Origin: Bryobacterales bacterium
Lineage (GTDB): Bacteria; Acidobacteriota; Terriglobia; Bryobacterales; Bryobacteraceae
Assembly: GCA_016789925.1 (NCBI GenBank)
Contig: JAEUQD010000116.1
Coordinates: 1 to 38,020 of the forward strand
Reading direction: 5' to 3'
DNA: 38,020 nt
Shown here: in pieces, positions 6,185 to 18,786 of the stretch
Position numbering within the stretch: position 1 is the first letter of the stretch
Layout of the letters: every line of letters begins with the position of its first letter
Program-made: the position numbers and the translations under genes
The notes under the pieces: generated by a model
Told to the model about the DNA's origin: nothing
Database searches by the model: none
What the model saw: only the letters and a program-made list of their open reading frames with translations

Positions 6185-7129
6185 TCACTCTAGGGTGACC
6201 GGTGTGACAAACCCTTCCGGTTTGACCGTTAGCACCGAGCAATCTACCTGGCGGAGTACCTTCTCTGCGGTGTTGCCAATGAACAGACCCGCCACACCAG
6301 TCCGGCATACGGTGCCCATGACAATGACATCAATTTGCTTGCTCTTGGCCAGGTGCGGGATGATCTCACTCGCCGCTCCGTTAACGATGTGAAGCTCCAC
6401 ATTGAGCCCATCCAATTCAGATCTCTTCAAAAGAGATGCAAACGCCGTCTCGTGGGCGTGCCTGGTATCGTCCACAACCTTTTCGATCTCATCGCTGGAT
6501 AGCCGGCTGCCGAGTCCGCTGATTTTCTCGGTGATTGGCAGCCAAGCATGGACTACGTGAAGTTCGCTCCCGTCGGATCGGGCAAGCGAGGTAGCCAACT
6601 GCATGATCTTAACGTTGAGTGAGTCGTGTGAGTTGTCGTGTGCCATAGGATCCACGGCGGCCAGCACCCTCGCATAGCTGGTGTGCGGCCCCGGTTTGGT
6701 TACCCACACGGGACACGGACACTTCCGCATCAAGTGCATCGAGGTGCTACCAAACAGGAACTCCCCCAGCGCGGGTTTCCCTTCCGTCGTCATGATCACC
6801 AGATCACGCTGCTCTCGCAGCACTTCACGGATGATCTCGATGAACGGGGATCCGCAGAGCACGCGCACGTTAACTGCAACATCGACTTTCCGCATGGGTT
6901 CAACCAAGCGTTCCAACTGCCCCGTTCTTTCTCCCACGGCGATGTCGATGAGGTCGTCGAGGGGCACGGCGCTAGCCAGAATCTGGATGTCGCGGGGTAA
7001 CGCCTCAAGCACGTGAATCACCGTCACGACCGCCCCATTTCTTTCAGCTAACTCTCCGGCCCGCACGAACGCCGGCGAGAAGTCGCTGGTGTTCTCCGCA
7101 ACGAGCAAAATGTTCTTGAACCGCTGCAT
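6185..7129 (-). CDS. Tandem universal stress protein (two Usp domains)
   Basis: Starting at the ATG at 7129, which has GGGAGGACC 10 nt upstream, the product is 314 aa (a GTG at 7147 would add six residues). It contains two UspA folds: the first begins FKNILLVAEN and ends GEFLFGSTSMHLMRKCPCPVWV, the second covers ARVLAAVD to SVLTVKPEG with GTVCRTGVAGLFIGNTAEKV, close to the G-2x-G-9x-G(S/T) nucleotide-binding signature. Tandem Usp proteins of this length resemble UspE. They are cytoplasmic stress proteins whose biochemical role varies. It is the last gene of a likely five-gene minus-strand operon (UPF0182, tiny membrane protein, baeRF, Hsp20, Usp), 111 bp after hsp20. Confidence 0.9.
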   Translation of the reverse strand: MQRFKNILLVAENTSDFSPAFVRAGELAERNGAVVTVIHVLEALPRDIQILASAVPLDDLIDIAVGERTGQLERLVEPMRKVDVAVNVRVLCGSPFIEIIREVLREQRDLVIMTTEGKPALGEFLFGSTSMHLMRKCPCPVWVTKPGPHTSYARVLAAVDPMAHDNSHDSLNVKIMQLATSLARSDGSELHVVHAWLPITEKISGLGSRLSSDEIEKVVDDTRHAHETAFASLLKRSELDGLNVELHIVNGAASEIIPHLAKSKQIDVIVMGTVCRTGVAGLFIGNTAEKVLRQVDCSVLTVKPEGFVTPVTLE

Positions 7130-7240
7130 GACCGTTGGTCCTCCCACGCATTCTGCACTCCGACCAAGGCGTACCGCTCAAAGGCCGCCACGTGCAACCT
7201 GTGCGCGCCCACTCCGCTTGAATCGGGCACTCATCACTCT

Positions 7241-7741
7241 TCACTCGGCCGCGACGATTTCGACCGCTTCATGCCGCGTGGCTTTGGTTGCGATGATGTG
7301 CAGCAACCCCTTGTTCAGCGTCGCCGTCACCTTGTCTGGATCGATCTCAACCGGAAATGCGATGCGACGGAGAAGCTGCTTGCCACGGAAATCGGAAAAC
7401 AGGACCTTTGCGTCTCCGCCTTCGGATTTCGGGACAGCCTCCGAACGAATGACGAGACACTCGGGCATCACACCGATCTGAATCTCCTTGGCATCAAGTC
7501 CGGGCACGGCGATCTGCAACCGGAATTCCAGCGGCAGTTCAACCAACTCGCAGTGAGGAGTGAAGAACACTTCTCGTTCGGCGCCGAGCCAGTCATCAAG
7601 CTCTCCGCCCGCGCTCGCGCCTCTTTGCAGGAATCGGTCAAACGCCCTGCGCTGCACATTGTCGAAGAGATCTCGAATCTCTTCAAAAAGAACGAATGAA
7701 AGCCCCTCCTCTGGGGAGAACTTCCGTATCAAGACATTCAT
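7241..7741 (-). CDS. Small heat-shock protein, Hsp20/alpha-crystallin family
   Basis: The ATG at 7741 has GGAGG 8 nt upstream and gives a 166-aa protein; an open extension to 7795 would be translated through a strong hairpin and has no ribosome site, so I reject it. The N-terminal 40 residues are variable, then the alpha-crystallin domain follows (VELPLEFRLQIAVPGLDAKE, then VLFSDFRGKQLLRRIAFPVE, then ATLNKGLLHI), with the closing G-L motif. Hsp20 proteins are ATP-independent holdases. The C-terminal I-x-I motif is degenerate (VEIVAAE), which may affect oligomerisation. It lies between the eRF1-like gene and the Usp gene in the same direction. Confidence 0.92.
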   Translation of the reverse strand: MNVLIRKFSPEEGLSFVLFEEIRDLFDNVQRRAFDRFLQRGASAGGELDDWLGAEREVFFTPHCELVELPLEFRLQIAVPGLDAKEIQIGVMPECLVIRSEAVPKSEGGDAKVLFSDFRGKQLLRRIAFPVEIDPDKVTATLNKGLLHIIATKATRHEAVEIVAAE

Positions 7742-7852: not shown

Positions 7853-9007
7853 TCAGGCCGCGCGCGAATGGAATCTCTCTGGCTCCAGATAGCGAAGTAG
7901 ACAGCCCACTCCGCCAAGCTGCATCAACACATCACTGTGATTGACGACCTCTATCTTGCAGCGCCCTTGCTCCGCCCATCGCACAAGTTCTTCCTTGACG
8001 TCCACGTGCAGGAACTCGCTGTCCCCGCAGCGAGGACACTTGTCGGGCGTCACCGGCTCAAGTCCTTTTGCTTCACAGGAACAGCACATCCAGCCCGGAT
8101 CTGGCGCATAGGACTTCGCCAGAACGAGAACATCCACTTGCCCGTCCTGGAGCGCCTTGGCGCTGGCGCCGGTACCAATGACCGCGAGCCCATTGGACAG
8201 CACAGCGCGCTGGAGCCGCTCGACCACCGCCACCGACTCCCGTTCCTCCTGTTCGACGAAGGAGAGCAGGGTGGCCGCCACGACATCCGATACCCGGTCA
8301 CCTCCCGAAGCGTGCACGATATCGACAAGTCTCTTTTCCAGGTGCTTCGGCAGCGCCTTCGCAATCCGTGCTGTGATCCGCGGACTCCCCGCCAGAATCA
8401 GGTGCCCATAGCCCCGGGCCGACATCAGTTGATCGAGTACCCTGATCTCCTCGTTGATGAATTGATTCGTACGTTCCTCGCGGTGGCGCTGATAGTGATC
8501 TTTCGTCCACTCCCGGCCCACACGTTCACGTAGTTCCGGCCGGTCCTTCCAGACCTGTTCAGTCACAGAGCCGAGGTTGACCGCCAGAATGCGGACGCTC
8601 GCTTCCGTGGCGAACATCACCACATAGCGGTCGTAGGTGTCCTTGAGCTCAACCAGGTGATAGATATTGGGAGTCGAGTTCACTGTAAGCCAGGTGGGAA
8701 GGGGCACGTGAAACGAAAGCGCCATCAAGAACGGCATGTCACCCTCACGAACGAAGATGGCGGCTCCCTTCGAGGACGGGTGAATGCCAGACTCGATAAA
8801 AGCCGCTACGCGAGCGAGTGCTGCGTCAACCGTCTCGCGGTCTGGTCCGGTGACGGATTTCCGGAAAAGGTGTTTGCGCTCCTCCAAGGCACTGTGGTAT
8901 ACGGGTTGCCCCGCCTCGAGGTTCAGGTAGCAGCTAATCACCGGCGCGTCCGTTTCCGCCAGGGTCGCAAGGGTCCTAATGTGCTTTTGAAGCTCCGTCA
9001 GTTCCAT
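7853..9007 (-). CDS. Bacterial eRF1-like protein (baeRF family) with zinc ribbon
   Basis: The 384-aa product starts at ATG 9007 with GAGG 8 nt upstream. It resembles the bacterial relatives of archaeo-eukaryotic release factor 1/Vms1 (baeRF): an N-terminal domain (VISCYLNLEAGQ, then GAAIFVREGD), a central domain (YDRYVVMFATEASVRILAVN, then HLILAGSPRITARIAKALP) and an eL30-like C-terminal domain (AVVERLQRA, then DVLVLAKSY) interrupted by a zinc ribbon C308-x2-C311...C324-x2-C327. Bacterial members have been proposed to act at ribosomes under stress, which fits the hibernation factor and DksA-like protein in the other arm of this island. No GGQ loop is evident, so peptide release as in eRF1 is not supported; assignment to a numbered subfamily needs a profile search. 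Confidence 0.8.
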   Translation of the reverse strand: MELTELQKHIRTLATLAETDAPVISCYLNLEAGQPVYHSALEERKHLFRKSVTGPDRETVDAALARVAAFIESGIHPSSKGAAIFVREGDMPFLMALSFHVPLPTWLTVNSTPNIYHLVELKDTYDRYVVMFATEASVRILAVNLGSVTEQVWKDRPELRERVGREWTKDHYQRHREERTNQFINEEIRVLDQLMSARGYGHLILAGSPRITARIAKALPKHLEKRLVDIVHASGGDRVSDVVAATLLSFVEQEERESVAVVERLQRAVLSNGLAVIGTGASAKALQDGQVDVLVLAKSYAPDPGWMCCSCEAKGLEPVTPDKCPRCGDSEFLHVDVKEELVRWAEQGRCKIEVVNHSDVLMQLGGVGCLLRYLEPERFHSRAA

Positions 9008-9079: not shown

Positions 9080-9226
9080 TCACTCCAGTAACAGGATTGC
9101 GAGAAATAGGCCGCCGAAAAGGACTACCGTTAAGCCGCTTACGCCCAGGTAGAGCAGCATCGACTCGCCTGTTGAACGGAGCCGCCCATGGCCCCGCTTG
9201 ATTTCCTCATTCAGTTCTCTGAACAC
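9080..9226 (-). CDS. 48-aa single-pass membrane protein, paralogue of the one at 15201
   Basis: This small gene starts at GTG 9226 behind an almost ideal ribosome site (AAGGAGGTAATGCC-GTG). The product begins VFRELNEEIKRGHGR, a charged amphipathic cytoplasmic head, followed by one hydrophobic segment at about residues 24-47 that contains VVLFGGLFLAILLLE. It aligns with the 47-aa product at 15201-15344 at about 23 identical positions of 47, including the shared E-x-I-x-RG-x-GR head and the VLFGGL tail. I do not recognise a named family. It lies 26 bp after UPF0182 and 72 bp before baeRF, so co-transcription is very likely. Conservation of a paralogue in the opposite arm is the main evidence that it is real. 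Confidence 0.75.
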   Translation of the reverse strand: MFRELNEEIKRGHGRLRSTGESMLLYLGVSGLTVVLFGGLFLAILLLE

Positions 9227-9252: not shown

Positions 9253-12045
9253 TTACCTTTGAATTGCCAGGCGTTCGATCACGGAGCCGAGCTGCTTGAG
9301 TTCTTCGCCGAATCGGGCCCAGTCGCCATCCCGCTGCGCCTGGAGCATCCGGTCGTAATGCATCTTCGCCTGCGCATTCAGCGGAGCTCCCACTGTGGCC
9401 TGCTTATCGTCGGTTGCCGGAATGCCGGTCAGCAGCTGGCCGGATGGCGCAGCACCAGACGGCGGCGCGTTCCCGAACACCCTGGCCAGACTGGCATCGA
9501 GCGTCGGCTCCATGGCGATTCGATTCTCGGCGACCACGATGACACGCCGCAGTTCAGGTATCTTCCCGGTAACAGCCCGCAGGTAGAGCGGCTGCACGTA
9601 GATCAGGGATTCCTTGATTGGAATGACCATGAGCGTGCCCAGAATCACCTGTGAACCGGCCTGGCTCCACAGCGTGATCTGCCGTGAGACCTCAGGATCC
9701 TGATTGATGCGGGCCGTTACCTGCTTGGGTCCGAAGATCAAGCGTTGCTTGGGAAAGCGGTAGACGACCAGCTGGCCATAGTGTTCCCCGTCCGCGCGCG
9801 CTACCATCCACGCCGCCAGATTATCCTTGCGTTGCGGGGTGAACGGCAGCATGAGAATGAACTCCTCGGCTTTTTCCTCGGGCAGTTTCATGATCGTGTA
9901 GTACGGCTCCATGACCTGTGATTCACTCTTGTCTCCCGAGCCGGTCACCGAGGCGACTGTCCATTGGTCCTCTTTGTTGTAGAAGACCTGGGGTTGGTCC
10001 ATGTGATAGGTGGAGTAGACCGCAGTCTGGATTTTGAAGATGTCTTCGGGATACCTGAGATGCTCGCGCAAACCGGCGGGCATTTCCGCGAGCGGCCGGA
10101 GGATCTCCGGGAAGATGCGGGCATAGGTCTGAATCACCGGATCCCGTTCGTCGGCGATGTACAGCGTGACATCGCCGTGGTAGGCGTCCACCACAGCCTT
10201 GACGGAGTTGCGAATGTAGTTGGTGCCACGCCCAACCGGTTGCGAGTAGGGGTAGCGATCGCTGATGGTGTAGGCATCATTGATCCAGAAAAGGCGGCCC
10301 TCGAAGATCACCAGGTACGGGTCGCCGTCAAAGTGCAGGAACGGCGCAACTTTGCCGAGCCGCTCGCGGATGCCGCGGTGGTAGAGGACGCGGCTATCGG
10401 CCGTCAGATCATTGGAAAGCAGCAGCTTCATGTCGGCAAACCGCGTGGCAAACAGTAACTGCCGCCAGGTCGATCCGACCGGGACGCCGCCATCGCCGGC
10501 ATAACTGGTGAAGACATTGTCCTCTCCGGCGGGATGGTTAAACTCCTTCACGTTGGTCTTTACATAGACGGGGGAGTTCGACATTTCACCGAAGTAGATT
10601 TCGGGGCGATCCACGTTCAGCGAAGGAACCGTGGAAGCCGGCGGGATGTCTTTGACGAACAGGACCGGCAGGCCCTCACCCGTTGCCTTGGCGACGGGCC
10701 CGACGGTCAGCCCGAAGCCGTGCGTGAAGGTGAGGCGCTCGTTGATCCAGTTGCGATTCGGGAGGCTCGCCGCTGACAACTCCCGCGGGGAGAGCATGAC
10801 CTGCTGCACCTCACCGTTGATGCGATAGCGGTCGTTGTCCACGGACTGGAACTCGTAGTAGGTCCGAATCTCCTGAATCTGTCCAAAGGTATCGAGCAGA
10901 GGCTGTTGATCCCACAGCCGGATGTTCTGGATGGTGCGCTGATTGTCTTGGATGTCCTGGGCGCTGAGCGTCTTCTCTCCGGTCAACTCACGTTCTTGCA
11001 CCCCGTCGAGTCCGAACGCTTTGCGAGTGGCGGCGATGTTGAGTTTGATGTAGGGTGTTTCCTTGACCAACTCATTGGGAGCCACGGAGAACCGCTGCAG
11101 CATAGCCGGGAATAGGGCTCCCCCAATAAGTGATAACGCGTAGGCGGCGACTCCGGCCCAGAACGTTCGGTTCCTGACGCGGAAAACGCACACAAGGGCC
11201 AGAGCGGAGGCCAGTAGGGCGGCATAGAATTTCACCCACAGCAGTGGCAACCGCGCAGCGATGTCTGTATAGCCCGCTCCAGCAACCGGTCCCGCGGTCG
11301 AATAGAGCAGATTCGGCATTGATAGGTAGACTTGCCAGGCAAGGATTAAGAAGAATGCCGACGCAAGGCCCAGGATGTGTGCTCGGGGGCCACGTCGCCG
11401 CAGAAAGGAGATGACCCCGTCGCCATCATCTCCCACACTGCGGACCACGTAGACTGCGGCCGCGCCTATCAGGCTCACCGCGCAAAGGACGAATAGCAGG
11501 CCCGCGGCGAGATCAAGCACCGGCAGCGTGAAGAAGTAAAACCCGATGTCACGCCCGAAGATCGGATCAGCCTCACCGAACGGCTGCTGATGGCGGAACC
11601 GCAGGAAGGTATCCCACGCTCCCCAGCCAAACACTCCAGCAAAGGCGCCAATGACCAGCGACGCGGGCGGAATCATGCGCGGAACCAGGACGGCGAGATC
11701 GGGAATCGGCACGCCCTCCTCGCTGACGCGAAAGGCGGGTTCATCGCGGTTCGGCACGGCGCTCAGCCGCAGAGCGAGTCGGAGATTGAACCACACGAGC
11801 GCGGCCGCAGTCAGGCCGATCATGAGGCCCAAGCTGAGCTTCGCAACCAATACCGTTGAAAAAACCACCCCAAACCCAAGATTCTGGAACCACAGCCAGT
11901 CTGTGTAGAATCCGGCCATTGATGGCCAGATTACGAGCAAAGCGGCAATCATGCCCAGGCCCAGCAACGTCCAAGAACTCCTGCCCCTTCCGTGCTGTCC
12001 ATGTCTGTCCGCTGTCGCGCGATTGGCGTCCGATCTTAGTTGCAC
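9253..12045 (-). CDS. UPF0182 family multi-pass membrane protein
   Basis: A 930-aa protein starts at GTG 12045 with GGGAGGACCA directly upstream (GGAGG, 5 nt spacing). It has about seven membrane segments in the first 320 residues (for example [20 protein letters not shown]), with the family landmark [17 protein letters not shown] near residue 47, followed by a large extracytoplasmic domain containing [35 protein letters not shown] and DRYPYS. Length and order match UPF0182/COG1615 proteins, whose function remains unknown. It is the first gene of the left arm, and the conserved box at 12115-12160 lies 70 bp upstream of its start codon. Presence of a large exposed domain suggests envelope function, but that is inference. 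Confidence 0.92.
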
Positions 12046-12114
12046 TGGTCCTCCCGAGTCACGTCAGCCGTTCAAATGGGATGTCCCACAATCGAGTGTA
12101 GGCTGGAAGTCACA

Positions 12115-12160
12115 GATCGACAAATAGATAGTTCCGACGCTATACCTCGAAATACCCGAG
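12115..12160 (-). promoter_or_regulatory. NhaR-type box A, upstream of UPF0182
   Basis: The plus-strand text starts GATCGACAAATAGATAGTTC, continues through TATACCTCG and ends with the dyad CTCG (12146-12149)...CGAG (12157-12160). Box B at 12768 matches it in the same register, with the dyad 31 bases from the motif start in both. It lies 70-115 bp upstream of the UPF0182 GTG and has the same orientation relative to that gene as box B has to the secreted-protein gene. Assignment to the neighbouring LysR-type regulator is inference. Confidence 0.6.
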
Positions 12161-12290
12161 TATTCAACGGCAGTCACGAAGCGCCTAGCTTCTTGACCGG
12201 GTGTTCGACCTGGATGCGGGCATTCCTGGATGCAGGGACCACCCGGTTCTTTGCCGGAGACGGCCCCCGCATGTTGGTCAAGTAGCAGAT

Positions 12291-12730
12291 CTACTGAAAT
12301 CGTTGGGCTGTCTGCTGAAGCAGTGAGGCTCGCATGGCCAAGCCCTTGGCGTGAGCCCGAAGCATGGACCGGTTCTTCTTCATGTCGTCCGCTTTCATCA
12401 ACTCGTCCTTATTGTTGTGAAAGATAGCCAGCAACTGGACTTTCTGCTTGAGAAGGTCCCAATCCTTGTCACCTCGCTGGACGAACTGCGGATTTGCCTC
12501 CGTAAGCTCGACGACCAGCCTCTGGATGTTCTCGATATCCCCCCCATGGCGGCGATTCCGTCGCGGACGGCCTGAGCGTCGGGTTGCTTCGCCTTCAGGA
12601 GAAGGTTAACCTGTTCGCTCCCCTTCTGTAATTTGCCGGCGTGGGTCCTGATCTCCGCAAGCCGCGTGTCCGCGAAGGCCGAGGTGGCCAACACGGTCAA
12701 GCATAGTGCGCTACTGAGTAAGTGCTTCAT
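12291..12730 (-). pseudogene. Short exported helical protein gene, frame broken at a G7 run
   Basis: Translation starts at ATG 12730 (AGGAGA 5 nt upstream) with a clear signal peptide (MKHLLSSALCLTVLATSAFA). The first frame is coherent for 64 codons (DTRLAEIRTHAGKL, then DAQAVRDGIAAMGG) and then reaches a run of seven G (plus-strand C at 12539-12545). Reading straight on gives Ser/Arg-rich nonsense to a stop at 12398. Re-reading one G (a -1 shift) restores a helical sequence (DIENIQRLVVELTEANPQF, then DKDWDLLKQKVQLLAIFHNN, then MLRAHAKGLAMRASLLQQT) ending at TAG 12291, total 146 aa. Causes may be an assembly error, a real homopolymer mutation, phase variation or programmed frameshifting. Box B lies 38 bp upstream. 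I do not recognise a family. Confidence 0.7.
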
Positions 12731-12767
12731 GTTTTTCTCCTGTTTCGATGCTAGCCTCGAAGCGACG

Positions 12768-12814
12768 GATCGACAGATAGGCAGTTTCGACGCTATACCT
12801 CGTAATAGCCGAGG
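12768..12814 (-). promoter_or_regulatory. NhaR-type box B, upstream of the short exported-protein gene
   Basis: Plus-strand text begins GATCGACAGATAGGCAGTTT, shares CGACGCTATACCTCG exactly with box A, and ends in the perfect dyad CCTCG (12798-12802)...CGAGG (12810-12814) with a 7-base spacer. It lies 38-84 bp upstream of the ATG at 12730, a usual position for a LysR-type activator site. Confidence 0.6.
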
Positions 12815-12929
12815 TGTGAATTGACTATCCCGTGGTGGGCTCAAGCAAGGCTCACCGGCTCTGAATCCCGCACGGGCAGTTTCCATCAATCGCTCAGACA
12901 GCCACATTCAGAGAGCGCACCGCGCGAAC

Positions 12930-13838
12930 TTAGAGGCTTTTCCCAAAAAGGGATTGCCGGGCCGATTCTGAAATGGCCACCACGGCCGGATGTTTGAGCT
13001 TTCGCTCGACCGAGATTGCGTAGAAGCGTTCAGTCACCGCCTCCGTTCGGCCAACCACTGAAACGTGGTGGTGACGGCGAACATCCTGCTCGACGGCTGT
13101 CGGAGCCACGAACACACCCACTCCAGCTTGTCCGAAGACCTTGAGAAGAGCGCTGTCCTGGAACTGTCCGACAATTCGAGGGCGTATGTTTTGGGCCTCA
13201 AACCACTGCTCCAATGATCGGCGCACCGCCGCATTTTCCAACGGGAGCAGGATCGGGGCGCCATCCAGCGAGGCGGGAAAGTTCTTTCGATACTTGGTGG
13301 CCAATGTCGGTTTGGCGAAGAAGGTGACCCCGCAACTACCAAGCAAGTGGCTGAACGCACGAACACGAACGCCGGGGCCGACGGGTGCGTCCGACAGGAC
13401 CAAGTCAAGCCCGAATGTGGCGAGCTCCGCCATCAGCTTCTCCGGCTGGTCCTCATAGCACACAATCTGAACAGGTTCAGGCAAGGTAAGCGCTGGCTCT
13501 ATGAGCCGGTAGGCTATGAGTTTAGGCAGAGCATCGGAAACGCCCACCACAAGGCGAATCGGCCGCCCGGCGGGACGGCCCTTGAGGGCGTCGGTGAATT
13601 CGCGACCCAACGAGAAGATCTCATTGGCGTAGCGATAGGCCAGGCGCCCGACCTCCGTGGGTACTAGGTTGCGCCCTGACCTCGTGAAGAGCTTCGCGCC
13701 CAGGGCATTCTCAAGGGCGCGGATTTGGCCGGTAATCGTGGGCTGCGCGAGGAGCAACTCCTTGCTCGCCTTGGCGATGCTGCCCTCTCGTGCGACCATC
13801 CAGAAATAGAGCAGGTGGTGATAGTTGAGCCATTCCAT
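12930..13838 (-). CDS. nhaR: NhaR-type LysR family transcriptional regulator
   Basis: From ATG 13838 the product is 302 aa, the usual LysR length; an ATG at 13850 would add four residues. The winged helix-turn-helix covers about residues 5-63 (LNYHHLLYFWMVAREGSI, then AQPTITGQIRALENALGAKL), and matches the NhaR branch strongly (NYxHLxYFW, TITGQIRALE, YRYANEIFSL). The co-inducer half contains GVSDALPKLIAYRLIEPAL, GLDLVLSDAPV, FQDSALLKVFGQAGVGVFVA and ERKLKHPAVVAI. E. coli NhaR responds to sodium and activates nhaA; no nhaA is in this window. The gene is divergent from the DksA-like operon, and its leader contains box C, consistent with autoregulation. The sensed signal here is unknown, though TerC, PiT and UPF0182 neighbours hint at ion or envelope stress. 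Confidence 0.88.
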   Translation of the reverse strand: MEWLNYHHLLYFWMVAREGSIAKASKELLLAQPTITGQIRALENALGAKLFTRSGRNLVPTEVGRLAYRYANEIFSLGREFTDALKGRPAGRPIRLVVGVSDALPKLIAYRLIEPALTLPEPVQIVCYEDQPEKLMAELATFGLDLVLSDAPVGPGVRVRAFSHLLGSCGVTFFAKPTLATKYRKNFPASLDGAPILLPLENAAVRRSLEQWFEAQNIRPRIVGQFQDSALLKVFGQAGVGVFVAPTAVEQDVRRHHHVSVVGRTEAVTERFYAISVERKLKHPAVVAISESARQSLFGKSL

Positions 13839-13851
13839 GTTCTTGATCATA

Positions 13852-13898
13852 CCTCGGCTTTGCCGATGATTATACTCTGAATTATCTATTTGTCGATG
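13852..13898 (+). promoter_or_regulatory. NhaR-type box C in the nhaR/DksA-like divergent promoter
   Basis: Read on the minus strand it begins CATCGACAAATAGATAATTC at 13898, then TATAATCATCGGC, and ends with GCCGAGG at 13852. It aligns without gaps to boxes A and B, and contains the dyad CGGC (13855-13858)-TTT-GCCG (13862-13865). It occupies most of the short gap between nhaR and the DksA-like gene, the classical position of a LysR-type autoregulatory site. Confidence 0.6.
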
Positions 13899-13928
13899 GA
13901 TTGAGTCTGCCCTAAAGTGGAATCGGAG

Positions 13929-14528
13929 ATGAAGAACGTGAACACTTTTGAGGAACACGCGCACAACGGACCTCGGCGGCGGGACCCTCCGGTGGCGTGT
14001 TCCTCTCTGGTTTGTCGCCCGCCGCCGGGCCTGTGCGCTTCTAACGCAGCCCGATCAATGCGAACGCTTCTCGGGCATATCGACGATAGCAGGCCCTTGT
14101 GGCGGGCCATCCAGGTGCAGCGGATTCGTGGGACGGTCACCAATCGGCTTCAATTCGCAAACACCGAGACGGTAATACCGCCAGAATGCCGTGAGCTCCT
14201 GCTAACGAAAAGGGCAGAATTGGCAGCCGTTCTTCAAAGCAGACATGGCGCACTGGCAGAACTGGGGCACGTCGCCGAAGAAGATCAGGCACCGGTGATC
14301 CATGGCGAATTTATTGCGGTGCGTATCAACCAGATCAGTCGTGAGCAGCTTGATCTGGTGATGTCGGCCTTGGCACGACTGGACTCGGGAGAATACGGCA
14401 TCTGCGTCGAGTGTGAACGCCCCATTGCCGCCAAACGCTTGGCCGCTGTCCCGTGGGCCAGCCACTGTGTCGCCTGCCAGGAACAGCTTGACTCGATACG
14501 CGATTCCTTGGAAAGGACACAAACGTGA
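13929..14528 (+). CDS. DksA/TraR-type C4 zinc-finger protein
   Basis: The C-terminal part is clear: a helical region (ECRELLLTKRAELAAVLQSR, then ISREQLDLVMSALARLDSG) followed by the DksA/TraR zinc finger C159-x2-C162...C180-x2-C183 (YGICVECERPIAAKRLAAVP). DksA-like proteins bind in the RNA polymerase secondary channel and tune rRNA and stress transcription. The 199-aa frame starts at ATG 13929; GTG at 13938 with GGAG 9 nt upstream and ATG at 14059 are alternatives. Residues about 8-38 are low-complexity and are encoded by the dispersed repeat at 13950-14043, so the extended N-terminus may be an insertion or may be untranslated. The stop overlaps the GTG of the receiver gene by 4 bases. Confidence 0.8.
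   Translation: MKNVNTFEEHAHNGPRRRDPPVACSSLVCRPPPGLCASNAARSMRTLLGHIDDSRPLWRAIQVQRIRGTVTNRLQFANTETVIPPECRELLLTKRAELAAVLQSRHGALAELGHVAEEDQAPVIHGEFIAVRINQISREQLDLVMSALARLDSGEYGICVECERPIAAKRLAAVPWASHCVACQEQLDSIRDSLERTQT
13950..14043 (-). repeat. Dispersed ~91-bp repeat, copy R1
   Basis: Read on the minus strand, this copy starts AGAAGCGCACAGG, has CGACAAA and AGAGGAACA in its middle and ends TCCGTTGTGCGCGTGTTCC. Copy R2 (15911-16000, plus strand) has the same blocks in the same order at almost the same length. R1 also has an internal 11-bp inverted repeat: GAGGAACACGC at 13950-13960 and GCGTGTTCCTC at 13995-14005. It lies within the 5' part of the DksA-like reading frame. Confidence 0.7.
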
Positions 14529-14998
14529 CAAGTTCCACGATGGAAAAACAACTTCAGCATCAACGGGCAACGGACGAACGAAGTGCGGTATTCCTAATCA
14601 GTCCTTTTAAAGAGGACCACATCTTTGTAGCTCGGATCTTCGACGGCGTCACCTGGAGGGTATCGGGGGTCTCCAGTTGCGCTGAGGCGCTGGAGATACT
14701 TCCCGCGTGGCGCTCGGCGGTCGTCATCTGTGATTCGGAGCTTCCCGACGGCGATTGGAAAGAGATCTTGGAGGCATTGGTCTTGCTGCCGTGTCCGCCG
14801 CCGATGGTTGTGACCTCTCGGCTCGCGGACGAGCGCCTTTGGGGGGAGGTGCTCCATCTCGGCGGTTACGACGTGCTCGCCAAACCCCTTGACAAAAGAG
14901 AAGTGCTTTGGGCGGTCAACTCAGCCTGGCAGCAATGTTACCGCCGGATGGAGCCGATCACACGGGCAAAACAGGCAGCCGCGGCCACGATGCAGTGA
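14525..14998 (+). CDS. Stand-alone response-regulator receiver domain protein
   Basis: The 157-aa frame starts at GTG 14525, overlapping the stop of the DksA-like gene (GTGA); an ATG at 14540 is an alternative. The fold of a CheY-like receiver is visible: FLISPFKED at the first strand, VVICDSELPDGDW with likely phospho-acceptor D70, MVVTSRL with T97 and VLAKPLDKREVL with conserved K120. The usual acidic pair at the first strand is not obvious (SPFKED). No output domain follows, so it may act by protein-protein contact, possibly with an unlinked kinase; no kinase is adjacent. The translational overlap suggests equal production with the DksA-like protein. Confidence 0.75.
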   Translation: MTSSTMEKQLQHQRATDERSAVFLISPFKEDHIFVARIFDGVTWRVSGVSSCAEALEILPAWRSAVVICDSELPDGDWKEILEALVLLPCPPPMVVTSRLADERLWGEVLHLGGYDVLAKPLDKREVLWAVNSAWQQCYRRMEPITRAKQAAAATMQ

Positions 14999-15200
14999 CT
15001 CTGTGCTGACCTCAGCGAAGGAGGTCGAGAAATGGTGCTGCCAAGTCCGAAGGAACAGACAAAACATGACCGCGGACGAGCGCCAATCATTGGGTTCGGC
15101 TTACTACACCATTTGTGTCGTTATCGCCGGGGCTCTCGTGGGGTTTTGTACCTCGGCAGTCTTCTGGAACGAGTCAACTAGTACAGAGAGGACAAGAATC

Positions 15201-15344
15201 ATGTTTAGCAGCTTGGATGAACAAATCGAACGCGGGCAGGGGCGGAAGTCCACCACGGAGCGGTTACTCCAGTATGCCGGTGTACTGCTGATGAGCACCG
15301 TGCTCTTTGGCGGGTTGTACGTCGGAATCCGCTTTCTGGAATGA
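15201..15344 (+). CDS. 47-aa single-pass membrane protein, paralogue of the one at 9080
   Basis: From ATG 15201 the product begins MFSSLDEQIERGQGR and ends in one hydrophobic segment with TVLFGGLYVGIRFLE. It shares about 23 of 47 residues with the 48-aa protein encoded at 9080-9226 and starts at the matching residue, which is why I choose this ATG (GAGAGG about 9 nt upstream). The open frame reaches further upstream; an ATG at 15066 with AAGGA before it would give a 92-aa protein with an additional hydrophobic segment (YYTICVVIAGALVGFC). Both versions are membrane proteins. It is placed between the receiver gene and the hibernation factor gene on the same strand. The family is unknown to me. 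Confidence 0.7.
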   Translation: MFSSLDEQIERGQGRKSTTERLLQYAGVLLMSTVLFGGLYVGIRFLE

Positions 15345-15350
15345 ACTGTT

Positions 15351-15470
15351 GTGGCGAGATCCACTAACCCGCCAACGCTAAGGAAGCTGTTGGAGGAAGA
15401 ACGAGACCGCCAAAGACCTCTTGTGTCTTTCGTCAATGACTTAATTGCTTGGAGGAGCCGGCCAACATGA
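15351..15470 (+). CDS. Possible 39-aa basic peptide coupled to hpf
   Basis: A GTG-initiated frame of 39 codons (begins VARSTNPPTLRKLLEEERDR) ends in ATGA overlapping the hpf start codon. The sequence is hydrophilic and helical-looking, and the overlap suggests translational coupling, but there is no ribosome site and no homologue I recognise. It fills the 122-base gap between the tiny membrane protein and hpf and could be chance. Confidence 0.25.
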   Translation: MARSTNPPTLRKLLEEERDRQRPLVSFVNDLIAWRSRPT

Positions 15471-15820
15471 GACTTCTTATACGTGGGCAGCAGACCGGTT
15501 GGACCGACGACCTGCGGCGACACGCCGAGAGGAGGGTGCACTTTGCTTTGAGCCGGTTCAGCCCGAGCATTGGTTTGGTGACTCTAGACCTCCGGGATTC
15601 CCCGACGGCGCTTGATGACCTTGGTAGGACCTGCCGGATTGTCGTGCATTTGGTACCCCGCGGAAACGTTCTTGTCGAGGAAACGCAGAAGGACACTTCC
15701 TCCGCAATCGACCAAGCGGCAGAGTGTGCCGGCCGCGCGGTGCGGCGTGCGCTGGAGCGAGATCGCGAATGGGAAGCAGATCCAACGCAGCCGAAAGCTA
15801 CCGGAGGCCCGAAGTCATGA
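15467..15820 (+). CDS. hpf: Short ribosome hibernation-promoting factor (HPF/RaiA, S30AE family)
   Basis: The ATG at 15467 has GGAGGAG 9 nt upstream and gives 117 aa. The order of elements matches a short HPF/RaiA: strand (MRLLIRGQQ), helix (WTDDLRRHAERRVHFALSRF), strands (GLVTLDLRDS, then CRIVVHLVPRGNVLVEETQK) and a final helix (SSAIDQAAECAGRAVRRALE) where many HPFs have DLYAAID-like sequence. These proteins bind the 30S subunit and hold ribosomes inactive during starvation. It lacks the C-terminal dimerisation domain of long HPF. Its stop overlaps the start of the next ORF (ATGA). Identity of this divergent member is inferred from pattern. Confidence 0.75.
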   Translation: MRLLIRGQQTGWTDDLRRHAERRVHFALSRFSPSIGLVTLDLRDSPTALDDLGRTCRIVVHLVPRGNVLVEETQKDTSSAIDQAAECAGRAVRRALERDREWEADPTQPKATGGPKS

Positions 15821-16080
15821 CCGCGCTGCTCCCCATCAGACACCGGGACGACGTTCTACCGGCCTACCGGGGAACGCCGATCGCGGACCTGGTTACCTAC
15901 CACAACCTGAGAAGCGCACAGGGCCGCGGAGCGCGGCGCCAAAGAAAAGAGGAACAACGACTTCCGCCGCGCGTAGCAGGCTCCGTTGTGCGCGTGTTCC
16001 TTAGAAGCCTGCACCGGCTACTACCAGGCAAAGATTCGGTTTTCTCTACCAGATCGTTGAAGACGAGGCAACACGAGTAG
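15817..16080 (+). CDS. Small protein, possibly a truncated carbonic-anhydrase-like gene filled in by repeat R2
   Basis: The 87-aa frame overlaps hpf by 4 bases (ATGA). Its first 31 residues (LLPIRHRDDVLPAYRGTP, then IADLVTYHNL) resemble the beginning of a group of carbonic-anhydrase-like proteins that start with a similar P-AYR-TPI-LL-YHNL pattern; this is from memory and uncertain. After YHNL the frame enters the dispersed repeat at 15911-16000 (residues about 32-61, Arg-rich) and then a short basic tail. The catalytic part of any carbonic anhydrase is absent, so the gene is probably truncated, or the N-terminal resemblance is accidental. It ends 3 bases before the TerC gene. Confidence 0.45.
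   Translation: MTALLPIRHRDDVLPAYRGTPIADLVTYHNLRSAQGRGARRQRKEEQRLPPRVAGSVVRVFLRSLHRLLPGKDSVFSTRSLKTRQHE
15911..16000 (+). repeat. Dispersed ~91-bp repeat, copy R2
   Basis: This copy starts GAAGCGCACAGGGCCGCG, has AAGAGGAACA in the middle and ends TCCGTTGTGCGCGTGTTCC. The last 19 bases are identical to R1 read on the minus strand; the first 12 are identical as well. The ends form an imperfect inverted repeat (GCGCACA...TGTGCGC). It lies wholly inside a small open frame and keeps it open. Confidence 0.7.
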
Positions 16081-16083
16081 TCG

Positions 16084-17085
16084 ATGGGCATGGAAAGCAT
16101 AGGAACGCCTTTACTGTGGGTCGGCTTCACCGTGTTCGTGCTCGCGATGCTCGCCCTCGATCTCGGCGTGTTCCACCGCCGGGCGCATGCGGTTCACGTC
16201 CGGGAGGCGCTCCTTTGGACCCTGGTCTGGATCTCCCTGGCGATGATCTTCAACGTGGGGGTGTACTTTTGGTTCGGGTCCGAGCGCGCACTCGAGTTTC
16301 TCACTGGTTACGTCATCGAGAAAGCACTCTCGGTGGACAACATCTTCGTCTTCCTTGTGATCTTCTCCTACTTCGCGGTCCCGGCTGCGCTCCAACACCG
16401 GGTACTGTTCTGGGGAATCCTGGGCGCCTTGGTCATGCGGGCAATCTTCATATTTCTGGGGGCCGCCCTTCTCCAGCAGTTTCATTGGGTTATTTACGTC
16501 TTTGGGGCCTTCCTTTTGTTCACCGGCGTGAAGTTGTTGCTCCAGCAGGGGAGCGAGGTTCATCCCGAGCGCAATCCGTTGTTCCAACTATTCCGCAGGA
16601 TGGTTCCGTCAGTTAACGCCTACCGGGGCTCGCATTTCACGGTGGTCCAGGCCGGGAGGCGATATGCGACTCCGCTTCTCCTGGTCCTTGTGGCTATCGA
16701 GGCAACCGACCTCGTCTTTGCCGTCGACTCCATTCCGGCGGTCTTCGCGATCACCCGCGATCCGTTCATCGTGTATACATCGAACATCTTCGCCATACTC
16801 GGCCTGCGAGCTCTCTACTTTGCCCTCGCTGGCGTGATGGGCAGGTTCCACTACCTGAGGGTAGGCTTGGCGCTGGTATTAGCCTTCGTGGGCGCAAAGA
16901 TGATGCTCACCGACCTGTACAAGATCCCGATCGTGGCCTCCTTGGCCGTCGTCGCCGCTTTGCTCGCGGGTTCCGTCGTGGCTTCGCTGATCCGCCCTCC
17001 GGCCGTAGTGCCGCTCCCAATCCCTCCGGCTCGCGGACCGCTGCCGGCCCGGCTCACTGATCACCCCGAGGAGATCGAGCTATGA
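16084..17085 (+). CDS. TerC/Alx family integral membrane protein
   Basis: A 333-aa protein with about nine membrane segments. It shows the TerC family landmarks: LALDLGVFHRRAH near residue 24, GYVIEKALSVDNIFVFLVIF near 77-96 with the acidic pair E and D in membrane helices, RVLFWGILGALVMRAIFIF, and a second repeat-like AIEATDLVFAVDSIPAVFAI with conserved acidic residues near 207-217. TerC/Alx proteins are linked to tellurite resistance and to manganese or calcium export coupled to membrane protein folding. ATG 16084 or 16090 may be the start; neither has a strong ribosome site, so coupling with the upstream ORF is possible. The C-terminus is Pro-rich and cytoplasmic. Confidence 0.9.
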   Translation: MGMESIGTPLLWVGFTVFVLAMLALDLGVFHRRAHAVHVREALLWTLVWISLAMIFNVGVYFWFGSERALEFLTGYVIEKALSVDNIFVFLVIFSYFAVPAALQHRVLFWGILGALVMRAIFIFLGAALLQQFHWVIYVFGAFLLFTGVKLLLQQGSEVHPERNPLFQLFRRMVPSVNAYRGSHFTVVQAGRRYATPLLLVLVAIEATDLVFAVDSIPAVFAITRDPFIVYTSNIFAILGLRALYFALAGVMGRFHYLRVGLALVLAFVGAKMMLTDLYKIPIVASLAVVAALLAGSVVASLIRPPAVVPLPIPPARGPLPARLTDHPEEIEL

Positions 17086-17131: not shown

Positions 17132-17806
17132 GTGAGACTTGGCGAACGCAGGACGGCTTTGCTCGCGGTTTCTACAGTGGTCCTCTCCGCGGGGACTCTC
17201 ACCGCCGGAGAACTGTGGAGCTGGCATTCGGTTGATTTCACTTTGCTCAAAGCGCGCGGCGTTGAATGGGGATTACACACCAGAGTCCGGACCCGCGAGG
17301 GAGAGCTGCAACAAAGCCGTTCCGGCACCATTCTGAGATTCACGCCGCACTCGCGGTTGACCGTTGTTGGAGGCTACTACTACGGCAGAGAGGAAGACAC
17401 GCGCGAGGAGTGGCAAAACTCCCATCGCGTGTTCTCCGGCGCCGAAGCCCGCGTCTCTAGGAAGAGTGGCGTGTCGGTGGCCGTTCGCGGGCTGGTGGAG
17501 AGGTTTGCCACTGGTGGCCGGCCCAGTTTTACCCGTTTCCGCCACAGAATTCGCCTTTCGACGGACCACCGCATCGGCCCGTTCGCGAGTGGGGAGTGGT
17601 TCTGGGACGTCAAGGGCTACCTGGCCGGGCGCTATTCGAGCGGGCTGCGCTGGCGCAGCTCGAACTGGGCTTCCATGGAATTCGGCTATCTCTACGATGC
17701 GCGGAGCCCGCACCTTGGCCCACCGCGCCACGGTGTCGTCACGCAGCTTCTGCTAGAGCGCCGACGGGAACCGCACCCGCTCCTGCGCGGAGGACAACAG
17801 CGATGA
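17132..17806 (+). CDS. DUF2490-like outer-membrane beta-barrel protein
   Basis: The 224-aa protein starts at GTG 17132 with GGGAGG 9 nt upstream and has a signal peptide (TALLAVSTVVLSAGTLTAGE). The mature part is rich in alternating aromatic and charged strands (WSWHSVDFTLL, LTVVGGYYYGREE, NSHRVFSGAE, FTRFRHRIRLS, NWASMEFGYLYD), matching the pattern of DUF2490 barrels, including the tryptophan-led first strand and RFRHRIR. Function is unknown. The stop overlaps the ATG of the phosphate transporter gene (ATGA), which suggests that the barrel and the inner-membrane transporter are produced together, perhaps as an uptake pair; that is inference. Confidence 0.65.
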   Translation: MRLGERRTALLAVSTVVLSAGTLTAGELWSWHSVDFTLLKARGVEWGLHTRVRTREGELQQSRSGTILRFTPHSRLTVVGGYYYGREEDTREEWQNSHRVFSGAEARVSRKSGVSVAVRGLVERFATGGRPSFTRFRHRIRLSTDHRIGPFASGEWFWDVKGYLAGRYSSGLRWRSSNWASMEFGYLYDARSPHLGPPRHGVVTQLLLERRREPHPLLRGGQQR

Positions 17807-18786
17807 GCCCTGAACTCTTCGTCGTCCTTCTTCTCATCCTGGGAGCCGAATTCGTAAACGGCTGGACTGACGCGCCGAACGCCATCGCGACAGTCGTAGG
17901 AACCCGTTCGCTCCCCCCTGGTGCCGCGCTGGGCATGGCATCTGTATTCAACCTCATCGGCGTGATGTCCGGAACGGCAGTCGCGACCACCATCGGCACG
18001 GGCATCATCGACCCGAGTGCCGTGAGCTTGGCCACCGTCGGCGGAGCGATGGTCGGCATCATAACTTGGTCAAGCGCAGCGGCCCGATGGGGAATTCCAA
18101 CCAGCGAGAGTCATGCACTGGTCGCGGGTTTGGCCGGCGCGGGGCTAGCCTCCGCTGGTCCCTCGGTGCTTCTCTGGGCTGGATGGCAGAAGGTCCTCGC
18201 GGGGCTGCTCATTTCCACCTTTCTCGGTTTTGGAGCCGGCCTAAGCCTGATGCTGGTCGTTTATTGGTTCTTTCGGAAGGCCGTGCCCGGCACGGTCCGT
18301 GGCTTGTTTCGCTGGCTTCAGATCTGCTCCTCTGCGTTCATGGCCTTCAGTCACGGTTCCAACGACGGGCAGAAGTTTGTCGGTGCCTTCGTCCTCGCTC
18401 TGGTCCTGGGTGGGGTTCTGCCTACGTTCCACATTCCGGTTTGGGTCATACTCCTCTGCGCGACGGTGATGGCGATGGGAACCGCCGCCGGCGGTTGGAG
18501 AATCATCAAGACGCTGGGTAGCGGAGTCACAAAGCTCAAGACTCACCAGGGGTTTGCGGCGGAGCTAGCCGCTGCGGGTACGATCACCATGGCTTCATCA
18601 TTCGGTATCCCGCTCAGCACGACCCACACCATCTCGACATCGATCATGGGGGTCGGTTCGGTTCGCAGAATCCGCGCGGTGCGCTGGAGTGTGACCCACG
18701 ACCTGGTCATAGCGTGGCTGCTTACCTTTCCGATCTGCGCAGCCATCAGTTGGACGGTTGTGAGGCTAATCATGCTGATCAAGTAA
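17803..18786 (+). CDS. pit: PiT family inorganic phosphate transporter
   Basis: I start at ATG 17803 (GGAGG 9 nt upstream, 4-base overlap with the DUF2490 stop), giving 327 aa; the open frame extends upstream only through the shadow of that gene. The protein has the two inverted PiT signature motifs: FVNGWTDAPNAIATVVGTRS at about residues 17-36 and FSHGSNDGQKFVGAF at about 182-196, plus SESHALVAGLAGAGLA and ASSFGIPLSTTHTISTSIMG, each typical of the family. These are proton- or sodium-coupled phosphate (or metal-phosphate) symporters of the inner membrane. The usual PhoU-like (DUF47) partner gene is absent. It is the last clear gene of the right arm. Confidence 0.92.
   Translation: MSPELFVVLLLILGAEFVNGWTDAPNAIATVVGTRSLPPGAALGMASVFNLIGVMSGTAVATTIGTGIIDPSAVSLATVGGAMVGIITWSSAAARWGIPTSESHALVAGLAGAGLASAGPSVLLWAGWQKVLAGLLISTFLGFGAGLSLMLVVYWFFRKAVPGTVRGLFRWLQICSSAFMAFSHGSNDGQKFVGAFVLALVLGGVLPTFHIPVWVILLCATVMAMGTAAGGWRIIKTLGSGVTKLKTHQGFAAELAAAGTITMASSFGIPLSTTHTISTSIMGVGSVRRIRAVRWSVTHDLVIAWLLTFPICAAISWTVVRLIMLIK

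Follow-up and report, generated by a model that had tools for sequence, protein, structure and literature searches.

Candidate NhaR operators at three sites of a stress-gene island in a Bryobacterales bacterium

The window, that is, the whole stretch of 38,020 nucleotides that was analysed, contains an island of stress genes arranged in two arms, a left arm that reads leftward and a right arm that reads rightward, with the gene of a LysR-type regulator and a short exported-protein gene lying in the region where the two arms begin. The genes concerned are the following:

6185-7135, minus strand: universal-stress-type protein, with tandem domains by sequence reading
7241-7741, minus strand: Hsp20-type chaperone (PF00011)
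7853-9007, minus strand: baeRF family 10 protein (PF18854), weakly matching models of mycobacterial ribosome hibernation factors
9080-9226, minus strand: small one-helix membrane protein (sTM), paralogue of the plus-strand gene at 15000-15344
9253-12045, minus strand: UPF0182 membrane protein (PF03699, 946 bits), putative target of box A
12296-12730, minus strand: short exported protein, putative target of box B, with a frameshift at 12539-12545, where seven C follow one another (C7)
12930-13838, minus strand: nhaR, LysR-type regulator of the NhaR equivalog
13929-14528, plus strand: DksA/TraR-type zinc-finger protein (PF01258), first gene of the right arm
14540-14998, plus strand: single receiver (REC) domain protein (PF00072)
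15000-15344, plus strand: small membrane protein (sTM), second copy, paralogue of the minus-strand gene at 9080-9226
15467-15820, plus strand: HPF / S30AE ribosome hibernation factor of the short type (PF02482)
16084-17085, plus strand: TerC/Alx metal-homeostasis membrane protein (TIGR03718, 438 bits)
17132-17806, plus strand: DUF2490 protein (PF10677)
17800-18786, plus strand: PiT-type phosphate transporter (PF01384)

Some of these genes have particularities of their own. Past the C7 run, the second half of the exported gene continues in another frame and matches its relatives, a frameshift due either to a sequencing error or to a real mutation, and no Pfam family was found for the relatives of this protein. 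The small membrane protein is represented by one paralogue in each arm of the island, and in the related locus L092 one copy directly precedes baeRF. In the right arm, a further frame (15808-16077) opens with residues that we take to resemble the N-terminus of a beta-carbonic anhydrase; a Pfam search with this frame gave 0 matches, and it is possibly a gene remnant. Intact carbonic anhydrase genes adjoin nhaR boxes in the loci L093, L113 and L158.

The regulator belongs to the NhaR family of LysR regulators. The initial annotation had placed a NhaR-type LysR gene between the boxes described below, and its product indeed passes the NCBI curated equivalog cut-off for NhaR (NF008284, 266.2 bits against a cut-off of 219, over residues 1-299), with both the LysR helix-turn-helix (PF00126) and the substrate-binding domain (PF03466) above their own cut-offs. 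It shares 39% identity with E. coli NhaR, including an identical stretch, TITGQIRALE, in the helix-turn-helix region.

Around nhaR stand three matching sequence boxes, which the same annotation had proposed and which are present at most one base from where it had put them, alignable over 45 bases without gaps; their gene contexts were likewise given correctly:

12116-12160, plus strand: box A, with the -35-proximal module at 12116-12129 and a TCG-N7-CGA-type dyad at 12146-12160, before UPF0182 (minus strand, read leftward)
12769-12813, plus strand: box B, with the -35-proximal module at 12769-12782 and the dyad at 12799-12813, before the short exported-protein gene (minus strand) and after the nhaR stop
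13853-13897, minus strand: box C, with the dyad at 13853-13867 and the -35-proximal module at 13884-13897, in the divergent promoter between nhaR (minus strand) and the DksA-like gene (plus strand)

Over these 45 bases the ungapped pairwise identity is 39/45 for A and B, 33/45 for A and C, and 30/45 for B and C, while dinucleotide shuffling of the 3-kb region, repeated 300 times, never produced a match above 27/45 to A or 26/45 to C; a repeat search of the window recovers the boxes too. The two most similar boxes are A and B, with 80% identity over 69 bp. When the whole assembly (6.9 Mb, about 88% complete) was searched with the full-box pattern, allowing up to 3 mismatches, the 3 matches were A, B and C themselves, against 0 for the reversed control. 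A calibrated profile built from 34 nhaR-upstream boxes, 33 of them from other genomes and the remaining row being copy C, gave E values of 6.5e-7 for A, 3.3e-6 for C and 0.006 for B, with nothing else at E<=10 in the assembly, box A being the best-scoring site genome-wide.

Since pattern and profile find only A, B and C, the boxes are not a common genomic repeat, and the objection of that kind raised alongside the original proposal falls. That they could instead be a dispersed repeat, or an element acting on the transcript such as a terminator, an attenuator or a riboswitch, is thus scarcely credible: the dyads could in principle form hairpins, but there are three copies in the genome only, one of the two halves of the box is not a dyad able to fold into a hairpin, and the boxes lie upstream of the predicted start sites, where they overlap the -35 and -10 elements. 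The riboswitch reading in particular was dropped because an Rfam scan of the window gave 0 matches.

The internal layout of the boxes is that of a two-part operator. The TCG-N7-CGA dyad lies at a distance of 30 bp from a TCTATTTGTCGAT module in which the target gene has its -35, and the -10 follows 17 bp further on. In the box family as a whole, the recognition dyad has the T-N11-A form of LysR-type sites in 70 of 84 boxes, the second module being mostly T-N10-A, and the target side shows the profile TTTGTC, 17 bp, tA..at. All three boxes of the window fit this profile, and from this fit and its spacing it follows that the second module sits on the -35 of the gene that reads outward. The predicted promoter elements are:

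12095-12123, minus strand: predicted UPF0182 promoter, -35 TTGTCG at 12123-12118, 17-bp spacer, -10 TACACT at 12100-12095
12748-12776, minus strand: predicted exported-gene promoter, -35 CTGTCG at 12776-12771, 17-bp spacer, -10 TAGCAT at 12753-12748
13890-13918, plus strand: predicted promoter of the DksA-like operon, -35 TTGTCG at 13890-13895, 17-bp spacer, -10 TAAAGT at 13913-13918
13846-13851, minus strand: predicted nhaR -10, TATGAT, 7 nt before the ATG (13838)

A common orientation rule, in which the served gene lies on the TCTATTTGTC side, had been suggested and is borne out in all three cases, with the -35 and -10 at fixed spacing. The suggestion that copy C serves the DksA-like operon also stands, with a refinement: C adjoins nhaR as well, 15 bp before its ATG, and therefore serves both divergent genes. 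On the nhaR side, in 39 of 80 loci of several phyla (L091-L170), a -10-like TAnnnT precedes the ATG by 6-7 nt, against a background of about 1 per position; this placement predicts a leaderless nhaR mRNA, with the dyad between about -28 and -14.

The association between box and regulator extends far beyond this genome. In relatives, from the same family to the same class, a box stands directly before nhaR in most loci, and across the 80 named NhaR loci (Acidobacteriota, Planctomycetota, Myxococcota/Deltaproteobacteria and Methylomonas) a box scoring above 16 is found upstream of nhaR in 56, in most cases with its end 12-16 bp ahead of the start codon; in about a third of the nhaR loci examined no such upstream box is detectable. 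The check that had been proposed, a motif search in relatives with the same nhaR, thus comes out in favour of the boxes, which are divergently upstream of nhaR in most of them, and the orthologous position of box B, after the nhaR stop and before the same exported gene, is occupied in at least 5 (L043, L046, L047, L052 and L054). With the nhaR-upstream-box matrix, 114 matches above a score of 16 were obtained in 1.26 Mb of nhaR-centred DNA against 0 in the reversed control. The 114 include some of the boxes used for training, and of the distinct sites about half lie elsewhere than upstream of nhaR; boxes of this latter kind precede genes for HPF, HtpX, BON, the exported protein, DksA, carbonic anhydrase and a cation ATPase. 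At the level of whole genomes, nhaR is present in 16 of the 19 genomes with a box hit as against 24 of 101 overall (Fisher, 3e-10), and boxes unlinked to nhaR also favour nhaR genomes (p 0.017, 101 genomes). For these searches the calibrated profile was used in place of a strict 12-base pattern, which over the 101 genomes gave mostly noise away from nhaR. Three distant LysR matches (L034-L036, 31-35% identity) were set aside because their upstream sequences differ.

In one genome, G025, a strong box (L209, G025:C38:2621-2664, E 5.7e-5) faces a small zinc-ribbon-type protein on a contig other than that of nhaR, and nhaR itself (L033) is broken by a stop in the assembly examined.

The true owner of these operators could be some other LysR-type regulator with its gene at another place in the genome, as the T-N11-A form is common to LysR sites and weak box-like sites occur in three genomes without a NhaR match (G020, G023 and G035); this is nevertheless very improbable, given that the box adjoins nhaR across phyla, that it co-occurs with nhaR genome by genome, and that the same layout is met at E. 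coli nhaA and, in part, at pgaA. The classical NhaR targets of E. coli are nhaA, pgaA (pgaABCD) and osmC, and within E. coli stretches of 3.6, 10 and 9 kb the top hit of the matrix was upstream of nhaA, pgaA and osmC, respectively. At nhaA the site pairs a TCG-N7-CGA dyad with a TCTGATTT module, spaced as in the window; the pgaA site has the dyad and a similar module, the better of its two overlapping matches pointing the opposite way. The published E. coli NhaR consensus, TCgaAAAAatCtA (PMC6307784), resembles TCGACAAATAGAT. Taken alone, the E. coli match would be moderate evidence for a NhaR operator, supportive and not conclusive because control E. coli DNA yields about 11 equally scoring matches per 100 kb, most of them within a single AT-rich stretch. 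All in all, boxes A, B and C are very probably NhaR operators.

In the loci L217, L220 and L222, weak box-like sites stand before an OmpL-like porin, beside amtB-type (ammonium-transporter-type) genes. These sites were left uncounted because two of the three genomes are without NhaR, and they perhaps belong to another LysR regulator with a similar site.

The genes next to the boxes of relatives recall those of the window. Among others, 21 boxes have the short HPF on their -35 side, 8 the exported protein of box B, 6 HtpX, 6 a cation ATPase, 4 DksA/TraR, 3 BON, 3 carbonic anhydrase, 3 TerC and 1 baeRF. Divergently upstream of nhaR, HPF is found in 23, TerC in 12, DksA in 7 and baeRF in 3 of the 80 loci, counts that ignore relatedness. 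In G004 (L092), whose NhaR is 81-82% identical, sTM, baeRF, HPF, TerC, DUF2490 and PiT stand in line divergent from nhaR, so that genes of both arms of the window are joined there on one side of the regulator, a gene line supporting a common regulon for the two arms.

The proposal of one regulator for both arms is supported as regards the operator and boxes B and C; for box A it is plausible and not conserved, the UPF0182 copy being seen only here. A search for a box at UPF0182 genes elsewhere found none: 29 other UPF0182 loci, which need not be linked orthologues, score low. Since A is seen only here and resembles B most, a duplication is its probable origin. From this it could be argued that B and C alone belong to a functioning NhaR circuit, and that A, copied recently from the B region, matters little or not at all for UPF0182, all the more because A and B are so alike and no other sampled UPF0182 gene has a box, whereas the positions of B and C are kept in relatives. 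We regard this as unlikely, since A tops the site scores of the genome and keeps the -35/-10 spacing, and since baeRF lies on the HPF-TerC side of nhaR in G004, in such a way that a box on the baeRF arm would restore an already existing link.

The explanation that we favour, and hold with considerable confidence, is that A, B and C are bound as operators by the NhaR whose gene lies between B and C; this NhaR would activate outward and repress its own gene. Each box would offer two half-sites three helical turns (30 bp) apart: recognition would take place at the TCG-N7-CGA dyad (of the LysR T-N11-A type), and activation at the asymmetric TCTATTTGTCGAT module, in which the outward gene has its -35. 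A NhaR tetramer lying on both half-sites would contact RNA polymerase upon a signal, which by analogy with E. coli could be Na+, alkaline pH or osmotic stress. In this manner A would activate UPF0182-sTM-baeRF-Hsp20-Usp, B the exported protein, and C the DksA-REC-sTM-HPF-TerC-DUF2490-PiT operon, while at C NhaR should repress itself, because the C dyad lies between the -10 and the -35 of nhaR. Outward activation and autorepression are predicted here from established LysR behaviour, and we also infer the binding itself, the signal and, from gene spacing, the read-through of the UPF0182-to-Usp and DksA-to-PiT operons.

If so, uncharacterised proteins such as UPF0182, baeRF family 10, DUF2490 and the exported protein without a Pfam family would acquire a probable regulator and a probable signal, and an operator shared across phyla would make regulon prediction possible in many genomes. 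The presence of this box at nhaR in several phyla, often before genes of ribosome shutdown and ion balance, suggests a tie between salt or pH sensing and ribosome dormancy, a concrete hypothesis in which the former would be wired to ribosome hibernation. More tentatively, and as a conjecture that we find possible rather than probable, NhaR in Acidobacteriota, Planctomycetota and Myxococcota/Deltaproteobacteria could primarily be the switch through which Na+/pH stress acts on ribosome hibernation (HPF, baeRF) as well as on the transport of metals, bicarbonate and cations, by means of one conserved operator with two modules and of an nhaR transcript that is leaderless and self-repressed; the enterobacterial control of nhaA would then be a derived use of this circuit.

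In the open-licence literature no description was found of the cross-phylum operator, of its constant place at nhaR, or of the set HPF/baeRF/TerC/DksA/UPF0182. The NhaR regulon of Shewanella, concerned with osmotic stress and with a motif that differs from that of E. coli, was inferred by comparative genomics, as here, within Gammaproteobacteria only, and in the parts of that reconstruction consulted HPF/TerC/DksA islands, unlike here, are not mentioned (PMC3223726). E. coli NhaR binds the promoters of rsd and rmf, and cells that have lost nhaR contain more RMF, Rsd and 100S ribosomes (PMC10003395); NhaR affects rRNA transcription as well (PMC10157491). Because E. coli NhaR acts on rmf and rsd, its link with ribosome dormancy is not new in principle. 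There as here NhaR is tied to ribosome hibernation factors; that control, however, is repressive, whereas from the promoter geometry of the island one would expect HPF/baeRF-type operons to be activated, in cis to nhaR. With respect to the nhaA system of E. coli, the regulator is orthologous by the equivalog model and the two-module site is like the boxes of the window, but the nhaAR arrangement is absent: nhaR is divergent from stress genes instead of lying downstream of nhaA, and the nhaA homologue of this genome, on contig C73, has no box. Finally, classical LysR-type divergent promoters combine recognition and activation half-sites, with the dyad between regulator and target and the second module on the target -35, and in all of this, as in the predicted autorepression, the nhaR/DksA-like promoter is like them; unlike them, it would give rise to a regulator mRNA that is predicted to be leaderless, and its box is repeated elsewhere in the island as single-direction operators.
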